Shown: positions 1 through 7,940 of the stretch, piece by piece
Layout of the letters: each line of letters starts with the position of its first letter
Position numbering within the stretch: the stretch's first letter is position 1
Source: an uncultured Phycisphaera sp.
Lineage (GTDB): Bacteria; Planctomycetota; Phycisphaerae; Phycisphaerales; SM1A02
Assembly (NCBI GenBank): GCA_937919685.1
Contig: CALFOM010000200.1
Coordinates: forward strand, 1 to 40,985
Reading direction: 5' to 3'
Length of the DNA stretch: 40,985 nt
Translations under genes and position numbers: made by a program
The notes under the pieces: generated by a model
Told to the model about the DNA's origin: nothing
What the model saw: only the letters and a program-made list of their open reading frames with translations
The model's database searches: none

Positions 1-63
1 TGGATCATCTGGATCATCTGGATCATCTGGATCATCTGGATCATCTGGATCATCTGGATCATC
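1..63 (+). repeat. 9-bp tandem repeat, seven copies
   Basis: Seven perfect head-to-tail copies of TGGATCATC start at the first base, so the array may extend further upstream. The unit is a multiple of three. Read in the frame of the following iron-sulfur subunit gene it encodes repeated Gly-Ser-Ser, so a change in copy number would lengthen or shorten the protein without shifting the frame. The copies have no spacers, so this is not a CRISPR array. Confidence 0.95.
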
Positions 64-712
64 TCGAAAGAGCAACGTCTCTCGTCGCCTCTTCCTGCAG
101 ACGATCGGTATCTCCGCCGCCACCGCCGCTGCCGAGCGCCAGGCGGCGAATGCCGATGCCGTCATGAACGGCGGAGGACCGACCATCATCGGTCCCCTGC
201 CTGCGAAGACCTCGCTTCAAGTCAATGGAAGGCAACTCGACTTCGTCGCCGAGCCCGCCACGACGCTGCTCGAGGCGCTCCGCGAGCAATGCGATGTCAC
301 AGGCCCGAAGGAAGTCTGCGACCGAGCCGCCTGCGGGGGATGCACGGTGTTGCTCGATGAACGACCGGTGGCGAGTTGCATGATGCTGGCACTCGATGCG
401 ACCGACAGGAAGATCACGACGGTAGAAGGCATCGGCTCGGTCGATGCTCCCGATCCGCTTCAAATGGCGATGGCGGAGTTTGACGCCATGCAGTGTGGCT
501 TCTGCACGCCGGGCGTGGTCACGGCGGCCAAAGCGCTACTGATACAAAACCCCCGACCGAACCTCGATGAGATTCGCGCCGCGTTATCGGGAAATCTCTG
601 CCGTTGCGGCACCTACCCGAACATCTTCAACGCGGTGCTCGTGGCCAGTGGGCAGGAGCCGGTCGAAGAGCCGACCGATCGCGGCCGCTCCGCTTCGGGA
701 GAACGAGCATGA
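1..712 (+). CDS. Tat-exported [2Fe-2S] subunit of a xanthine dehydrogenase-family (PaoA-like) molybdenum hydroxylase, 5' end missing
   Basis: This subunit passes electrons between the molybdenum and FAD subunits. The frame is open from the window edge, so the start lies upstream. It runs through a Gly-Ser-Ser repeat into a twin-arginine signal, SRRLFLQ (80-100), followed by an Ala-rich hydrophobic stretch, which predicts export of the folded, cofactor-loaded complex. Counting from the Met at 164, C52, C57, C60 and C72 are the plant-type ferredoxin cluster ligands. C111, C114, C146 and C148 (CGFC...CRC) are those of the C-terminal [2Fe-2S]-binding domain. The internal ATG at 164 would remove the Tat signal, so I reject it as the start. 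The stop overlaps the next start as ATGA, so translation is probably coupled. The family call is firm. The closer match to periplasmic PaoA rests on the Tat signal and the four-cysteine insert in the FAD subunit. Confidence 0.92.
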   Translation, partial: GSSGSSGSSGSSGSSGSSGSSRKSNVSRRLFLQTIGISAATAAAERQAANADAVMNGGGPTIIGPLPAKTSLQVNGRQLDFVAEPATTLLEALREQCDVTGPKEVCDRAACGGCTVLLDERPVASCMMLALDATDRKITTVEGIGSVDAPDPLQMAMAEFDAMQCGFCTPGVVTAAKALLIQNPRPNLDEIRAALSGNLCRCGTYPNIFNAVLVASGQEPVEEPTDRGRSASGERA

Positions 713-2847
713 GCCAACCACCACGAGATCTCCGAGCGATCAACGCAGGTCAGTCGGTCGCGGATCACGCGACCCGACTCGACGGCCTCGAGAAGGCGAC
801 CGGTGCCGCCCGATACGGACGGGACCAGATCAAGAAAGACATGCTCTGGGTGAGGTTGATTCGCTGCCCTTGGGGACGCGCCTCACTCGATTCACTTGAT
901 CGTGATGCGGCACTCGCCACGCCAGGTGTCGTCGAAGTCGTGGTATCCGGAGACGCGGGCGAATACCACGGCGATTCCATCGGATACGTCGTGGCCCGAA
1001 ATAGGCGAGCTCTGGAGCGAGGCCTCCAGGCGCTGGATGCGACGTGGACCCGTTTGGACTGCAAGACCGGAATACTCGACGACGAGAAGGCCCGAGCGCC
1101 GATGGGAGATCCATCCGCAGAGACCGCCAAGGCAATCGACGATGCAGCGTTCACCTTTGAAGCCACGTACTCGACGCCGGTGCAGACCCACTCCTCGCTA
1201 GAGACCCACGGTCTGATGATCGAACCTGACGGCGAAAATTCGATCGTCCATGCCTCCACCCAAGGCACCTTCGTCGTCGCCGATCAGATCGGCCGCTTCC
1301 TCGGCAAGCCGCGATCGAAGATCATCATCGACTGCGAACACGTTGGCGGCGGATTCGGCTCGAAGTTCCAGATCGGCAAGGAAGGTGCGGCCGGAGGGCT
1401 CGCCGCCAAGACTTCGGGCGAAGCTGTCTACTCCTTCTGCGATCGCGAGGAAGAACATCTGGATACCGGAAACCGCCCTTCGCTTCTCTGTAAGGTTCGC
1501 CTCGGCCACGATGCCGACGGCACGATTCGCGGCGCTCGCTTCGAAACGTTTGGCGGAACCGGCGTCTCACGACGCGGCGGCGGCGCCCGGGTTCCCAGTG
1601 GGCGATTCGAATTCGGAACCCTCGACAGCCCAAACCACCAGGATATCCAGTTCAACGCCGGAGGCCCCCGAGCGATGCGGGCCCCCGGATGCCCCCAAGG
1701 CGCCTTCGTCGAGGAACTCCTGATCGATGAGATCGCTCATCGGTGCGGGCTGGATCCCCTTGCCCTCCGACGTCGGCTTGACGACTCCGAGCGTCGCCAA
1801 CGAATGTACGACGTGGCGGCGGATCTGATCGGTTGGGAGAATCGGGCGGACACTGGATCCCAGACCGGCACGATGCGAACGGGATACGGCATCGGAACCT
1901 GCCACTGGGGCAAAGGCCGAGCGCCCGCCAAGATTGAAGTCGTCGTTCATCCCGATGGACATCTCGAAGTGAGGACCGGCACACAGGACATCGGAACCGG
2001 ACAACGGACGGCGATGGCCGCCCTCGTGGCCGCTCGCATCGGCGTTCCACTCGCGAACATCTCGGTTGCGATCGGCAATTCAATGCTTCCTGCCGGCCCG
2101 GCATCGGGCGGATCAGTCTGCACGCCAAGCACGGCACCCGCGGCAATGGCTGCGGCCGACCTCGCCCGCGAACGCATTCTGGCGGGGGTCGCGGAACGAG
2201 AGAAACTCGACGCCGACAGACTGACCATCGACGACGGCGTGATCATGGAAGGCGGCCGGAAAGTCATTCGTTGGGAAGACGCGTGCCGGCGACTCTCCGA
2301 ACCGGTCTCCGTGACCGGAGAATTCGATGGACAGGCGAGTGCACACTGGGGCGAGGGATCTTCTGAGGGCGTTCAAGCGGCTCGCGTCGAAGTCGACTGC
2401 GAGACCGGCCAGATCTTCGTCCGCGACGTGATCGCCATTCAGTCCTGCGGACTCCCTCTGGTCCGAAAGACTGCAGAGAGCCAGATCATGGGCGGGGTCA
2501 TTCAAGGAACGAGCTACGCGCTTTTCGAAGAACAGGTTCTCGACCCGGGCACCGGCGCCGTCCTGAACGCGAACTTCGAGAACTACAAAATCCTGGGATC
2601 CGAGGACTGCCCGCGAATCGTCCCGGTGCTTTGGCGAGATGATCAGACCGGCGTTCGCGCCCTCGGCGAACCTCCGGTGGTCCCCACCGCCGCGGCGATC
2701 GCGAATGCCGTCTTCAACGCAATCGGACGTCCCGTTCGCGACCTCCCGCTTCGACCGGATCGAGTGCTCGCCGCGCTCGCCGAACCGATGGCGGAGCGTG
2801 TGGTGGCCGCGGCACCCAGAAACGCCGACCTGGAGAATCGGGCATGA
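709..2847 (+). CDS. Molybdopterin-binding large subunit of a xanthine dehydrogenase-family (PaoC-like) oxidoreductase
   Basis: This is the catalytic subunit that binds the molybdenum cofactor and hydroxylates an aldehyde or N-heterocycle. The protein is 712 residues, normal for separate-subunit members of the family. The start at 709 overlaps the previous stop (ATGA) and follows GGGAG. An in-frame upstream ATG at 604 lies inside the previous gene and is unlikely. An aldehyde oxidase a/b hammerhead domain occupies about residues 18-135. The cofactor loop GGGFGSKF is at 213-220. The C-terminal GEPP, whose Glu (E654) sits where the family's catalytic base lies, is followed by the usual AAAIANAV helix. 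It has no signal of its own and would be carried out by the Tat signal of its partner. The substrate cannot be told from sequence: aldehydes, isoquinoline-type rings and others are possible. Confidence 0.92.
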   Translation: MSQPPRDLRAINAGQSVADHATRLDGLEKATGAARYGRDQIKKDMLWVRLIRCPWGRASLDSLDRDAALATPGVVEVVVSGDAGEYHGDSIGYVVARNRRALERGLQALDATWTRLDCKTGILDDEKARAPMGDPSAETAKAIDDAAFTFEATYSTPVQTHSSLETHGLMIEPDGENSIVHASTQGTFVVADQIGRFLGKPRSKIIIDCEHVGGGFGSKFQIGKEGAAGGLAAKTSGEAVYSFCDREEEHLDTGNRPSLLCKVRLGHDADGTIRGARFETFGGTGVSRRGGGARVPSGRFEFGTLDSPNHQDIQFNAGGPRAMRAPGCPQGAFVEELLIDEIAHRCGLDPLALRRRLDDSERRQRMYDVAADLIGWENRADTGSQTGTMRTGYGIGTCHWGKGRAPAKIEVVVHPDGHLEVRTGTQDIGTGQRTAMAALVAARIGVPLANISVAIGNSMLPAGPASGGSVCTPSTAPAAMAAADLARERILAGVAEREKLDADRLTIDDGVIMEGGRKVIRWEDACRRLSEPVSVTGEFDGQASAHWGEGSSEGVQAARVEVDCETGQIFVRDVIAIQSCGLPLVRKTAESQIMGGVIQGTSYALFEEQVLDPGTGAVLNANFENYKILGSEDCPRIVPVLWRDDQTGVRALGEPPVVPTAAAIANAVFNAIGRPVRDLPLRPDRVLAALAEPMAERVVAAAPRNADLENRA

Positions 2848-3842
2848 ACCCTTTCGCCTACACCAGTCCCAGAAACACGACCGACGCTTCCGCGCTTGCC
2901 GTACCGAACGGCGACTTTGCGTTGCCGGTCCTAAAAAGCGGCGGCATGGACCTGCTCGACCGGATGAAGGAGGGCCTCGAACGGCCCGATCTGGTCGTCG
3001 ATCTCACCCGTATCGATGATCCGACGCTTGATGCGATCGACGCCGGCCGAATCGGTGGAAGAGTCACCTTGGCCATGGTCGCGGAGTCCGAGGAACTCCG
3101 GAAGTCCGCGCCGATCCTTGGGGCCGCATCGGGCAGCGCTGCCACGCCTCAGGTTCGCAATGTCGCGACCGTCGCCGGAAATCTCCTGCAGGAAACCCGA
3201 TGCTGGTACTGGCGGATGTCGCAGTTCGACTGCCTGCGGAAGACCGGCGATGACTGCCCCGCCCGAGAAGGCGATCACCGATTTCATGTGATCTTTCAGG
3301 ACGGCCCTTGTCTCATGGTCCATCCTTCGAATCTTGCTCCAGCCCTATTCGTACTCGACGGAGAGGTGGAGGTCGTCGGAGGCGATCGAACTCGAATCCC
3401 GATCCGGGATCTGTACGCCGATCCGGCCGTCGACTGGCGTTCGGCCAGCGTGCTCTCGCCGGCCGAAATCATCACCGGCATTCGTTTCAAATCCGCTCCG
3501 AATTCGGCCTTCATTGCGTTGAAGCAGAAGCAATCCTTCGACTGGCCGATGGTCTCCGGTTATGCCGTTCTCGATCTCGACGGCGACGTGATCAAGTCTG
3601 CACGAACCTGTGCCGGCGCCGTGGCGCCTCGTCCGCATCCGCTGCCACAGGTCGATGCGGCATTGGCCGGACTCTCGATTCACGATGAAGCTCGAATCCG
3701 AGCCGCGTGCGAAATTTCGGTGGATGGCGCCGATCCCCTCCCGGGAACGGCCTACAAGATGACACTGCTCCCGGTGGCGATTCGACGGGCGGTAGCCGCC
3801 GCCGCACATTCTGCCGGTACGGCTCGAGGAGGTGACGCATGA
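2844..3842 (+). CDS. FAD-binding subunit with a four-cysteine ([4Fe-4S]-type) insert, PaoB-like
   Basis: This is the FAD subunit of the molybdenum hydroxylase (332 residues). It takes electrons from the iron-sulfur subunit and passes them to an acceptor. It has an FAD_binding_5 fold, with the flavin-pocket segment RNVATVAGNLLQ at 105-116, and a C-terminal CO dehydrogenase flavoprotein domain. Four cysteines, C120, C130, C138 and C156, sit in an insert directly after the flavin segment. The same region carries an extra [4Fe-4S] cluster in PaoB and in 4-hydroxybenzoyl-CoA reductase, so I infer one here. The gene order (Fe-S, Mo, FAD) differs from paoABC, which is Fe-S, FAD, Mo. ATGA overlaps at both ends fix the start and point to coupled translation. 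Confidence 0.9.
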   Translation: MNPFAYTSPRNTTDASALAVPNGDFALPVLKSGGMDLLDRMKEGLERPDLVVDLTRIDDPTLDAIDAGRIGGRVTLAMVAESEELRKSAPILGAASGSAATPQVRNVATVAGNLLQETRCWYWRMSQFDCLRKTGDDCPAREGDHRFHVIFQDGPCLMVHPSNLAPALFVLDGEVEVVGGDRTRIPIRDLYADPAVDWRSASVLSPAEIITGIRFKSAPNSAFIALKQKQSFDWPMVSGYAVLDLDGDVIKSARTCAGAVAPRPHPLPQVDAALAGLSIHDEARIRAACEISVDGADPLPGTAYKMTLLPVAIRRAVAAAAHSAGTARGGDA

Positions 3843-4075
3843 GTGATGCATCCACGGACGAACCGGTTCGACTGAACCTGATTGAGACCTGTGTGAACCT
3901 CCGACACAAGAACATGTATGTGATGACCGAGCACATGCACCGGGGGCTCGTCGATGATTCGAGCACCACCCGGTGTTTCTGGTGCGTACTGACTCAGGAT
4001 GAACTCGGACCGGATCGAAACGGCGTGACCCCCGACTCCTGCAGCGGTGGGCGCGGTTGTTTCGAGTCGGCGTGA
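3839..4075 (+). CDS. Small cysteine-containing protein of unknown function inside the molybdenum hydroxylase operon
   Basis: I do not recognise this 78-residue protein. It is held between the FAD subunit gene (ATGA overlap) and the mocA-like gene (GTGA overlap), which argues strongly that it is translated. Five cysteines, C18, C46, C49, C68 and C74, include a CFWC pair and a C-x5-C pair near the end. This arrangement could bind zinc or an iron-sulfur cluster. Histidines at 23, 32 and 35 could also bind metal. There is no signal peptide or membrane segment, so it is probably cytoplasmic. By position it could help mature the enzyme, for instance by inserting the cofactor or proof-reading before Tat export, a job done by XdhC/PaoD-type proteins elsewhere. 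No XdhC-like gene is present here. That role is inference only. Confidence 0.8.
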   Translation: MSDASTDEPVRLNLIETCVNLRHKNMYVMTEHMHRGLVDDSSTTRCFWCVLTQDELGPDRNGVTPDSCSGGRGCFESA

Positions 4076-4686
4076 CCACGCCGGACCAGCAGCCCGGAGT
4101 GGTCGGCGTTCTTCTCGCTGGAGGCCGCTCCGCCCGCATGGGACGCTGCAAGCAGACGCTCCCCTGGGTTCGCGATGGCCGACCAACCACGGTGGTGGCG
4201 GCGGCTCACGACACCATCTCTCGCCATGTGGGTTTGGTGTTCATCACGGTCGGACTCCATGCACCGGCCATCCGGAAGTCGCTTGGAGAACGGGCGGCAA
4301 CCTTCCTCGACGTGGATCCCGAAGGCTCGATGCTCGAATCCGCTCGCACCGGAATCGAGGCGGCACTCAATACCGGCGCTTCACGGATCCTCCTGCACCT
4401 CTCCGATCACCCGGCGGTTCGGGATATCACCATCGAGCGACTGCTTGATGAGGATGCGAGGCGATTTGATTTCGTTCACCCTCGAAGCGAAGGCCGTGGC
4501 GGACACCCGATCGTGCTCTCCTCGACCCTCGGCCGGCGGATCCTCGATGAACCACTCGCTGACGGGCTTCGATCCGCGCGTGAACTCCCGAATACCAGTG
4601 TCCTCGCGGTCGAGGTCGATGATCCTGGCATCCACCTGGATCTCGATACGCCGGAGTCATGGGGCGAGGGTCTGGGATCGATCTGA
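4072..4686 (+). CDS. mocA: Molybdenum cofactor cytidylyltransferase (MocA-like nucleotidyltransferase)
   Basis: It probably transfers CMP from CTP to molybdopterin to make the MCD form of the cofactor used by bacterial xanthine dehydrogenase-family enzymes. The protein is 204 residues with a MobA-like NTP transferase fold. The N-terminal signature LLAGGRSARMGRCK binds the nucleotide, and DHPAV is the likely metal-binding loop. The GTG start at 4072 overlaps the previous stop (GTGA). A TTG at 4057 in the same frame is possible but less likely. The operon context with three molybdenum hydroxylase subunits favours MocA (CTP) over MobA (GTP). The sequence alone does not prove the nucleotide preference. 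Confidence 0.85.
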   Translation: MTTPDQQPGVVGVLLAGGRSARMGRCKQTLPWVRDGRPTTVVAAAHDTISRHVGLVFITVGLHAPAIRKSLGERAATFLDVDPEGSMLESARTGIEAALNTGASRILLHLSDHPAVRDITIERLLDEDARRFDFVHPRSEGRGGHPIVLSSTLGRRILDEPLADGLRSARELPNTSVLAVEVDDPGIHLDLDTPESWGEGLGSI

Positions 4687-4753
4687 TCGACTTGAAGGAC
4701 GTCCCGTCACGCCTGCGAACGGGCAACGGAAGCAGTCTCGATGAAGGCCCGAC

Positions 4754-5542
4754 TCAGTCGCACAATGCAGCCACCTGGCTGCGAAGTCTTGGCCGAGTCT
4801 CGGTCAGGAATCGTTCCATCACCCGCTGCTGATTCGGATCGTCCATCGAGACATCGAAGGTATTGTCCTCTTCGAGCCACGACGCCGCCTTGCGAAGTTG
4901 CTCGCATTGCTCGGCCGTCGGCTTGATGTCCTCGCCGGACCGCGTCAGGTCGGTGAGCCCCCACCCGAAGCAATCTGCAGTGGCAAGTGTTGCGATCAGG
5001 CCGCGATCGGATCCGTCGTATCCGTGAGCGATCCGCGGAAGGTTCGCCATCACCACGATCACTTCCATCGCCCGCTCTTGATCGTCTTCAATAAGTGCCA
5101 ACCGCAGGTCGGCCCAGAGCGTCTTGCCGATGCCACGAATCGCCTGCGTTCGAATGGCGACCTCCTTCGGCGGAACCCCCCAGTCGCCGTTCAGTCCGGT
5201 CAACGGCATGTTGAATTTACGGAGATCCGTCAGCAGGATGACGACGCCCTCGTCGTCGGGCATCTGAGGCGCTCGGCGTGCGTCGAGCCACAAGTCGAAA
5301 CTCGAACGGATGATCGAGTCCCCCGCGACGAACTGAGAGTTGCCGTCCTTCGGCCAACGATTCAGCGAGTCAGCCCAGACCGATCCGGCCGCGGTCGATC
5401 CGCCCTGGGCCGCCGTTCCGGTGCCTGCCACGCCCGAACCGACACCCGCGACGATCCGAGTCGAACCATCATCACCGCACCCGGAAATGAGAGGGGCGAG
5501 AGAAGCCAGAATGCCGACGAGAATGGGTTTGATTTGGCGCAT
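4754..5542 (-). CDS. Predicted lipoprotein of unknown function
   Basis: The product is 262 residues. The start at 5542 was chosen because it puts a basic n-region (MRQIK) directly before a hydrophobic stretch and a lipobox LISGC with Cys22. A start nine codons upstream (5569) would add a Cys-containing extension. The Cys is followed by GDDGS and a Gly/Ser/Ala/Thr-rich linker, then a folded region of mixed helix rich in charged residues, with no motif I recognise. The Asp after the lipidated Cys is at position +3, so an inner-membrane retention signal of the +2 Asp type is not present. The gene converges with the molybdenum operon and stands 46 bp beyond the end of moaA, so it lies upstream-strand-wise of no obvious partner. 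Confidence 0.75.
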   Translation of the reverse strand: MRQIKPILVGILASLAPLISGCGDDGSTRIVAGVGSGVAGTGTAAQGGSTAAGSVWADSLNRWPKDGNSQFVAGDSIIRSSFDLWLDARRAPQMPDDEGVVILLTDLRKFNMPLTGLNGDWGVPPKEVAIRTQAIRGIGKTLWADLRLALIEDDQERAMEVIVVMANLPRIAHGYDGSDRGLIATLATADCFGWGLTDLTRSGEDIKPTAEQCEQLRKAASWLEEDNTFDVSMDDPNQQRVMERFLTETRPRLRSQVAALCD

Positions 5543-5588
5543 GCTTGTATTGCAACCGCCACGGAGCATGCTGTAAAGCGCCGAGCCT

Positions 5589-6650
5589 TCAGCCGCCGAT
5601 GCTGCTCATCGCCCGGCCGCCCCTCGAAGCATGAACATCCGGCTTCATGGCCGTGCATCGGGTGAATGCCTCAAAGAATGCTTTATCACTCGCGAGCTCG
5701 GAATCATGAGATTCATCGCGAAGTATCGGCAGGAGATCGACCTCTCCGCCGTCGAACAAGCAACTCCGAAGGATCCCGGAGGAGGTCAATCGAAGTCGGT
5801 TGCACGTTTCACAGAACGGTCGGCTCATCGCATGAATCAGTCCGATGCGACCACGTCCACCAGGCATCGCCAGCAGGCGAGCGGGACCGACCCCGGGATC
5901 GACCGCAGCATCGACGGGAGTGAGCGGACCGTGAACCGACTCGATCGCCGCAGTCACTTCATCAGCGGTGACCAGAAACTGATCCGGATCGCCGTCGGCA
6001 AGCACGCTCGAACCGAGCGGCATGAACTCGATGAATCGAACCGTCCAGTCTCGATCGCGGGCAAGTCCGGCGAAATCAGCGACTTCGTCATCGTTGACAC
6101 CTCGCATCACCACGACATTCAGCTTGACTGTTCCAAACACCTCTGCCGTCGCGTCGAGCCCTCGCTCGAAGAGATCGAAACGCCCGCCGCCGGTGATGTC
6201 GCGATAACGATCCGGCTGAAGGCTGTCGACCGAAAGCGTCACCCGATCGATGCCCGCTTCTTTCAATGGCCCAGCAAGCCGAGGCATCTGGAGACCGTTC
6301 GAGGTCATGGAGAGATCGGCGGAACCGAATGCCCGGATCCGCTGGATGATCTCGATCAGATCTCCGCGAACCGTGGGTTCGCCACCGGTGATCTTGAAGT
6401 GGCGCACGCCCAGCCGGTAGGCGAAACCTGAGATCCTGGCCAGGTCCTCCGGCGTCAGCAGGTCTTCCTTGGGCTGAAAAGACACACCACTCGCAGGCAT
6501 GCAATAGCCGCATCGAAGATTGCAGCGATCCGTGACCGAGATTCGGAGCATCCGCACCGACTCAAGTGATCGAGGCCCGTTGGCATAGATCGGACGGGAG
6601 GGACCGTTCTGCAGGACATTCAGCGGGATTTTTCGATCGATGGTCGTCAC
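5589..6650 (-). CDS. moaA: GTP 3',8-cyclase MoaA (molybdopterin biosynthesis)
   Basis: This radical-SAM enzyme starts molybdopterin synthesis by converting GTP to 3',8-cyclo-dihydro-GTP, the precursor handled by MoaC. The protein is 353 residues. The N-terminal SAM cluster is CNLRCGYC (C43, C47, C50). The C-terminal cluster that binds GTP is CETCNRLRLTSSGILRSC. The protein ends in GRAMSSIGG, whose terminal Gly-Gly tail is needed for activity in known MoaA. The GTG at 6650 is the only reasonable start after the response regulator stop, although GAGGA lies unusually close to it. The enzyme would feed the molybdenum hydroxylase operon encoded a few hundred bases away on the other strand. Confidence 0.95.
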   Translation of the reverse strand: MTTIDRKIPLNVLQNGPSRPIYANGPRSLESVRMLRISVTDRCNLRCGYCMPASGVSFQPKEDLLTPEDLARISGFAYRLGVRHFKITGGEPTVRGDLIEIIQRIRAFGSADLSMTSNGLQMPRLAGPLKEAGIDRVTLSVDSLQPDRYRDITGGGRFDLFERGLDATAEVFGTVKLNVVVMRGVNDDEVADFAGLARDRDWTVRFIEFMPLGSSVLADGDPDQFLVTADEVTAAIESVHGPLTPVDAAVDPGVGPARLLAMPGGRGRIGLIHAMSRPFCETCNRLRLTSSGILRSCLFDGGEVDLLPILRDESHDSELASDKAFFEAFTRCTAMKPDVHASRGGRAMSSIGG

Positions 6651-6708
6651 TCCTCGATGGTACCCCGTCAGAGGCGTCGATGACCTTACCGTTTTGGACG
6701 GCCCAGAT

Positions 6709-7128
6709 TCAGGCCGCCTCTCCCGCCTCGAAAAGCGTCTGGCCGGGCGCCAGGACCATTTGGATGTTCCGTTCGATGGCCTCCCGCAGATCCGCCGTCG
6801 CAAAGGGCTTCGTGAGTGTTTCAATGCCAGCGAGATCGGCGATGCCGCAAACGCTGAGACTGGCGGGTCCCAGCTCGGTGAGGAGGATGACCGGAGTACC
6901 GGAACAACTGCGAACACGGCGGGCGAGCACGGCACCATCACCGCCAGGCATGTTCAGATCGGTGACCACCAGATCGAACTTGAAACGTGAGAATTCCCGC
7001 CATGCCGTCGCCCCGGTGGTGGCGGTGACGCAGTTGTAGCCAAGTCCGTGGGCGACCTGCACAACCGAGAGCATGCTCTTGCGCTCGTCGTCAGCGACGA
7101 GCAGGGTCGGTCCGTTTCGAGTCCGCAT
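6709..7128 (-). CDS. Single-domain response regulator (CheY-like receiver)
   Basis: The protein is 139 residues and consists of one receiver domain. The acidic pocket D13/D14, the phosphoacceptor D57 (VVTDLNMPGGDG), T84 and K107 (TKPF) are all in place, so it should be phosphorylated. No output domain follows, only a roughly 20-residue tail. It may act by protein contact, as CheY does, or as a phosphate shuttle. No histidine kinase is nearby, so it is an orphan. It lies 58 bp upstream of moaA on the same strand and could be co-transcribed, but nothing in its sequence ties it to molybdenum. Confidence 0.9.
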   Translation of the reverse strand: MRTRNGPTLLVADDERKSMLSVVQVAHGLGYNCVTATTGATAWREFSRFKFDLVVTDLNMPGGDGAVLARRVRSCSGTPVILLTELGPASLSVCGIADLAGIETLTKPFATADLREAIERNIQMVLAPGQTLFEAGEAA

Positions 7129-7325: not shown

Positions 7326-7940
7326 TCAGGCAGTGCCCGAAACCGGGTCGATCGACGGATCCTGTCCGGGATCGGGGACTTCCGGGAATGCCGGCTCAGC
7401 GACCGGGACCGGTGCAGGGGCACCTTCGACCGGAGCGCCGGGGCTCCCTGTTCCGTCTTCCGCTTTGACCTCGTCAGCCAGATCGGCCGACGTCACGGGC
7501 TTCGCGTCGGCCCTTTGTTTCGCATTCGCCGCGACCAGTTGATCCCGGGCGGTCTCCGCGCGAAGAAGAACCCGGTCCGGATCGTCATTCTCGACGACGA
7601 GATCGAAGTGCCAGACCGTTCGGCTTTCGAAATCCGCAGGCACGAGTTCGGCGATCAGATCGGGCCCCGGAAGATCCCAGATCGGAACATTCGCCGATCG
7701 CCCGGTCACCACCGGTTCGAAACCGGCCTTCTCGACCCGGACGTCATATTTTCCATAGTGAAGGATCTCGATTTCGCACGGCGTCGAGCCCACCTCCCGA
7801 TCGTTCATCCAGACCAATGCCCCATCCGGAGCGGAGGTGATCTGAACCACCCGTCGAACACATCCAGATGAGGCCGCCATCGCTCCGGCGAGAACAGAGA
7901 TCGTCCAAAGCGCGGGATTGTTCAGTCGAAGTCGAGACAT
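7326..7940 (-). CDS. PEGA-domain lipoprotein
   Basis: The product is 204 residues. The start at 7940 gives MSRLRLNN followed by a hydrophobic stretch and ASSGC with Cys27, a passable lipobox. Residues of about 30-75 form a PEGA domain: ITSAPDGALVWMNDREVG, then TPCEIEI and YDVRVEKAGF. PEGA domains are small beta-sandwich modules of surface or cell-wall proteins. The C-terminal third is rich in Pro, Ala, Glu and Asp and is probably disordered or spans the periplasm. The gene diverges from lptB with an 85-bp shared upstream region. This fits an envelope role, but no partner is evident. Confidence 0.85.
   Translation of the reverse strand: MSRLRLNNPALWTISVLAGAMAASSGCVRRVVQITSAPDGALVWMNDREVGSTPCEIEILHYGKYDVRVEKAGFEPVVTGRSANVPIWDLPGPDLIAELVPADFESRTVWHFDLVVENDDPDRVLLRAETARDQLVAANAKQRADAKPVTSADLADEVKAEDGTGSPGAPVEGAPAPVPVAEPAFPEVPDPGQDPSIDPVSGTA

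Follow-up and report, generated by a model that had tools for sequence, protein, structure and literature searches.

Xanthine oxidase-family enzymes are usually taken to be complete with their iron-sulfur (FeS), FAD and molybdenum (Mo) parts, plus XdhC for maturation. An operon for such an enzyme at the start of the window (the whole stretch of 40,985 nucleotides analysed, from an uncultured Phycisphaera sp.) raises the question of what a further protein of only 78 residues, with five cysteines, is doing among its genes. The features concerned are as follows.

2..712, + strand: iron-sulfur subunit with two [2Fe-2S] clusters (profile matches); 5' end cut by the contig
80-100, + strand: twin-arginine motif SRRLFLQ of the iron-sulfur subunit
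709..2847, + strand: molybdenum-cofactor subunit, xanthine oxidase family (profile matches)
2844..3842, + strand: FAD subunit with PaoB/HcrB-type insert (profile matches)
3201 (C120), 3231 (C130), 3255 (C138) and 3309 (C156), + strand: cysteines of the FAD-subunit insert
3839..3842, + strand: ATGA overlap of the FAD-gene stop and the start of the 78-residue protein gene
3839..4075, + strand: gene of the 78-residue protein (open reading frame list, translation and homologue alignment)
3890 (C18), 3983 (C49), 4040 (C68) and 4058 (C74), + strand: codons of its invariant cysteines (alignment)
3974, + strand: codon of C46, a lineage-specific cysteine
4072..4075, + strand: GTGA overlap of the stop of the 78-residue protein gene and the GTG start of the mocA-like gene
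4072..4686, + strand: MocA-like nucleotidyltransferase, with a MobA-like NTP transferase domain (profile matches)
5589..6941, - strand: moaA (GTP 3',8-cyclase), longest open reading frame; the true start is probably nearer 6646

The length of the protein, its cysteines at positions 18, 46, 49, 68 and 74 and the overlaps with both neighbouring genes are exactly as the preliminary description of this DNA had given them, as is seen from the translation. The host operon encodes a molybdenum hydroxylase of the xanthine oxidase family (PF01799, PF02738, PF20256, PF00941 and PF03450), and its twin-arginine FeS subunit and four-cysteine FAD insert are those of a PaoABC-like, Tat-exported enzyme, with a different gene order. 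Its Mo subunit (709..2847) is the sole one of this family found in the genome, which is 97% complete in 254 contigs, and molybdenum-cofactor synthesis is represented nearby by moaA. The contig starts within a TGGATCATC tandem repeat (window 1-70). Its translation gives the FeS subunit an N-terminal (GSS)n run, immediately ahead of the Tat motif, and the repeat is probably the reason for the assembly break at this point.

The open reading frame at 3839-4075 is a real gene under tight constraint. This follows from the presence of homologues in all eight genomes of the genus (the other seven at 78-95% identity), from dN/dS values of 0.035-0.09 against those seven relatives by the Nei-Gojobori method, and from the alignment of 117 homologues from the phylum. 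The FAD and Mo genes alongside have similar dN/dS. It could be supposed, from its shortness and its overlap with both neighbours, that the frame is a chance or passenger one, kept only by lying across two essential genes; we regard this as refuted by the same dN/dS values, by residues that are invariant over the 117 sequences in many families, and by conservation of the gene where the mocA neighbour is absent. In the sequence check the product had neither a signal peptide nor a transmembrane stretch of its own. A weak second match in the same genome, on contig C97, lacks the motif of the family and was rejected as a paralogue. A search for genes in which the FAD subunit and the small protein are fused also found none, the long open frames being alternate frames in G+C-rich DNA.

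The preliminary description had called the protein unrecognised, and the searches bear this out. When members of the family, singly and as a diverse set of 34, were scanned against Pfam, NCBIfam and PHROGs, only chance matches came out, and a profile search of PDB sequences with the family gave only antibody chains, by chance. Specifically, Pfam and NCBIfam detected no XdhC_CoxI or XdhC_C domain in the protein, and neither curated profiles nor fold comparison gave a match to a ferredoxin, a rubredoxin, a zinc ribbon or another cysteine family, weak folds being possible. AlphaFold2 models built on 37 and 34 homologues, with middling mean pLDDT values of 78.6 and 75.7, consist of short strands and one short helix, and neither matched a solved structure. 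A literature search, which most subscription journals lie outside, found no paper mentioning the family. As far as these searches reach, the protein is thus a member of a new, unrecognised family attached to a known kind of enzyme.

C18, K24, C49, C68, R72 and C74 are invariant in all 117 sequences of the phylum alignment, with G57 kept in 115, P58 in 110 and D59 in 109. Conservation had been suggested as a check on all five cysteines; it extends to four of them but not to C46, which is a cysteine in only 10 of the 117. The spacing is C-x(23-37)-C-x18-C-x(5-7)-C, in which the x18 interval is kept in 115 of 117 sequences and no CxxC spacing occurs among the invariant four. The protein therefore has the four invariant cysteines that are necessary, although not sufficient, for a metal or Fe-S protein, and, to judge from those residues, they probably serve as ligands of a metal or Fe-S centre, disulfides being the other possibility. 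After export the cysteines might pair as disulfides and bind no metal, and it is conceivable that the protein is a small exported structural subunit in which two disulfides stabilise the complex without any metal. The absence of CxxC spacing and the Tat export of the host enzyme speak for such a subunit. However, the invariant K24 and R72 and the GPD around the cysteines suggest that more than disulfides is involved, and we consider it improbable.

By profile search the family was found at 102 places, spread over 101 of the 392 Planctomycetota genomes sampled. All 101 places that could be judged lie within the operon of a single enzyme clade, the remaining one being cut by a contig end; the suggestion that the small protein is locked to Tat-type molybdenum hydroxylase operons has therefore stood up, in that no homologue was seen outside them among the judgeable places. 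At all 36 named loci, and at 79 of 80 further ones (the exception is at a contig end), the small gene is directly behind FeS-Mo-FAD on the same strand, and the coordinates of places that were not fetched agree with a position behind FAD. The four-base overlap with the FAD stop (-4) is the commonest arrangement (37 of 115), most of the others being within 15 bases. In genome G144 (L210), the only operon found with the two genes apart, the small gene follows FAD by 0.8 kb; between them lie an open reading frame at 7387-7761, which we take to resemble a GxxExxY-type protein, and other small open reading frames.

The converse is nearly as strict. A FAD-subunit profile sets apart one clade (111 matches with E below 1e-86) from weaker FAD subunits, and, counted by hand, the small gene is present in 100 of the 109 operons of this clade that can be judged and missing from nine; two more run off contig ends. 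On the FAD tree those without the gene are nested among carriers, with two or three changes needed, and for that reason they look like losses. Five operons without the gene (L206, L208, L209, L211 and L212, from one family) have behind FAD a conserved protein of about 120 residues and of unknown kind, which reads MxVRFxDPxxVxLLxHIFASILRRGLxDAxVA...; in another operon without it, L217, the Mo-subunit homology at 3920-5843 is in three pieces, owing either to a pseudogene or to an assembly error. Practically every operon with a readable start has a twin-arginine motif on the FeS subunit. None of five loci examined from the weaker FAD class (L218-L222) has the small gene. In four of these (L218-L220 and L222) the FAD insert is spaced differently and there is no convincing Tat signal (a motif flagged in L219 being unconvincing); the fifth, L221, is Tat-type with the PaoABC gene order.

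It should be noted that the sampled distribution is that of one phylum. An exact-peptide scan of 84,980 species genomes gave 36 loci, all titled planctomycetes, with two exact patterns taken from the nearest members, to which distant members are invisible; absence from other phyla is for this reason not proven. A search of 72,556 plasmids with three family members gave no homologue, although a homologous FAD subunit is present on 625 of the same plasmids. An extra linked protein in about a quarter of the sampled Planctomycetota means that models of assembly, export or electron output for these enzymes miss a component. Since the linkage is strict, the small gene also offers a useful way of recognising one clade of exported molybdenum hydroxylases in the genomes of planctomycetes, which are mostly uncultured.

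The preliminary description had noted that no XdhC/PaoD-type maturation factor accompanies the operon, and had proposed that the 78-residue protein is an accessory factor for cofactor insertion or quality control. The first point is right for the window but not for the genome, which has one XdhC gene on another contig, C252 (PF13478, E 2.8e-29). Of 50 genomes with the small protein, 48 have XdhC as well, in most cases not linked to the operon. The small protein thus adds to XdhC and does not replace it, and the notion that it fills the gap left by a missing XdhC has to be abandoned. Furthermore, linkage to the operon is seen for xdhC at only about six of 110 loci and for mocA at 11 of 100, so that the small protein travels with the structural and not with the maturation genes, which inclines us slightly towards a stoichiometric component over an accessory factor.

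The reading that we prefer, with the chances about evenly balanced, is that the small protein is a dedicated fourth component of the Tat-exported FeS-Mo-FAD molybdenum hydroxylase, preferably as an exported metal or Fe-S subunit. The linkage in both directions, the six invariant residues, dN/dS values that match those of the enzyme subunits, the Tat motif on the host FeS subunit and the lack of the small gene in the cytoplasmic-type relatives (L218-L220 and L222) are all in its favour. It is also known that the signal-less partners in E. coli PaoABC are exported with PaoA (PMC4273604). On the other side, the nine clade operons without the gene imply that the enzyme can work without it, which would suit a helper equally well, and the models are middling and matched no solved fold.

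Alternatively, and in amended form, the original suggestion may hold: the small protein could be a cytoplasmic assembly or quality-control factor, absent from the mature enzyme, which binds the apo-enzyme and either supplies or protects an Fe-S cluster or sulfur, or delays Tat export until the cofactors are in. We regard this as a serious but lesser possibility. Such a factor would be expected to be strictly linked, with coupled translation, to an enzyme that is Tat-exported and rich in cofactors, and to be small, without a signal of its own and losable. NapD and HybE are small, dedicated Tat proofreading chaperones encoded with Tat-exported metalloenzymes, and chaperones of this kind likewise stay beside structural genes, which weakens the argument from linkage; the 78-residue protein, in contrast, matches no Pfam or NCBIfam family. 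PaoD and HybE provide precedents, each being a factor with an exported enzyme as its client (PMC4273604), and PaoD is absent from the mature enzyme (PMC3958847; PMC2997495). Against an assembly factor, xdhC and mocA, which are known maturation genes, mostly lie away from the operon, as the small gene never does, and XdhC is present as well. The XdhC/PaoD chaperones serve the same enzyme family and sometimes adjoin the small gene (L028, L030, L032, L033 and L050), but at about 330 residues they have no sequence relation to the 78-residue protein and occur in addition to it.

A more specific proposal was that the small protein is tied to FAD subunits bearing the four-cysteine insert. In an alignment, the insert of the host operon falls on the [4Fe-4S] region of 4-hydroxybenzoyl-CoA reductase and of PaoB. 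The association with Tat-type operons holds, but 11 FAD subunits from operons with the small gene, all of one clade (L088, L099, L100, L108, L121, L126, L136, L145, L150, L164 and L210), have kept the insert without any of its four cysteine ligands for Fe-S. A further 18 or so have three of the four, the fourth cysteine being replaced by serine or some other residue, a loss that may change the cluster type. The small protein retains its own four cysteines in the ligand-free clade. Conversely, there are PaoB-like FAD subunits that have the insert but are not accompanied by the small gene, so the tie fails in that direction also. An obligate partnership with the insert is accordingly rejected, and the FAD-subunit cluster cannot be the sole client or site of the small protein, because the ligand-free clade keeps the gene; this counts against an assembly factor for that cluster alone. 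A comparison of subunit positions between operons with and without the small gene gave one weak lead. The glycine after CRC in the FeS subunit, next to the second cluster motif, is kept in 96 of 96 readable carrier operons and changed in five of six readable non-carriers. We claim no docking site from it, since the glycine is present in L203, which is without the small gene, and in E. coli PaoA.

Comparison with known systems emphasizes what is different in the planctomycetes. E. coli PaoABCD shares the Tat signal on the FeS subunit, the separate FeS, FAD and Mo subunits and the four-cysteine FAD insert, but its order is FeS-FAD-Mo-paoD and its operon has no gene like that for the 78-residue protein, whereas the window operon has the order FeS-Mo-FAD-small protein, with xdhC usually elsewhere in such genomes. 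E. coli does have a small gene near paoABCD, although not in the operon, for YkgJ, annotated as a putative metal-chelating domain protein; YkgJ-type Pfam models match no member of the small-protein family. In 4-hydroxybenzoyl-CoA reductase (HcrABC; PDB 1rm6), the FAD subunit with the [4Fe-4S] insert is homologous to that of the window, which scores 138 bits against the HcrB-type model TIGR03195, far under its curated cut-off of 404 bits. The planctomycete operons with HcrB-like insert spacing are those noted above as lacking both the small gene and a clear Tat signal.

If the small protein is a fourth component, the following scheme may be envisaged, in which its metal binding, complex membership, export and electron transfer are what we infer. 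It would be made in amounts coupled to those of the FAD subunit, via the ATGA overlap, would hold a metal or Fe-S centre with its four invariant cysteines and would bind the enzyme in the cytoplasm. In the preferred version it would then remain bound as a small subunit, leaving the cytoplasm by means of the FeS subunit's Tat signal, and once exported would either stabilise the complex or pass electrons to a periplasmic acceptor. The fullest form of this scheme, a stoichiometric fourth subunit from a small Fe-S or metal family that hitchhikes through Tat and gives electrons a further way out to a periplasmic acceptor, is rather doubtful; were it true, the extra exit would explain the persistence of the small protein in operons whose FAD subunit no longer has its cluster ligands.
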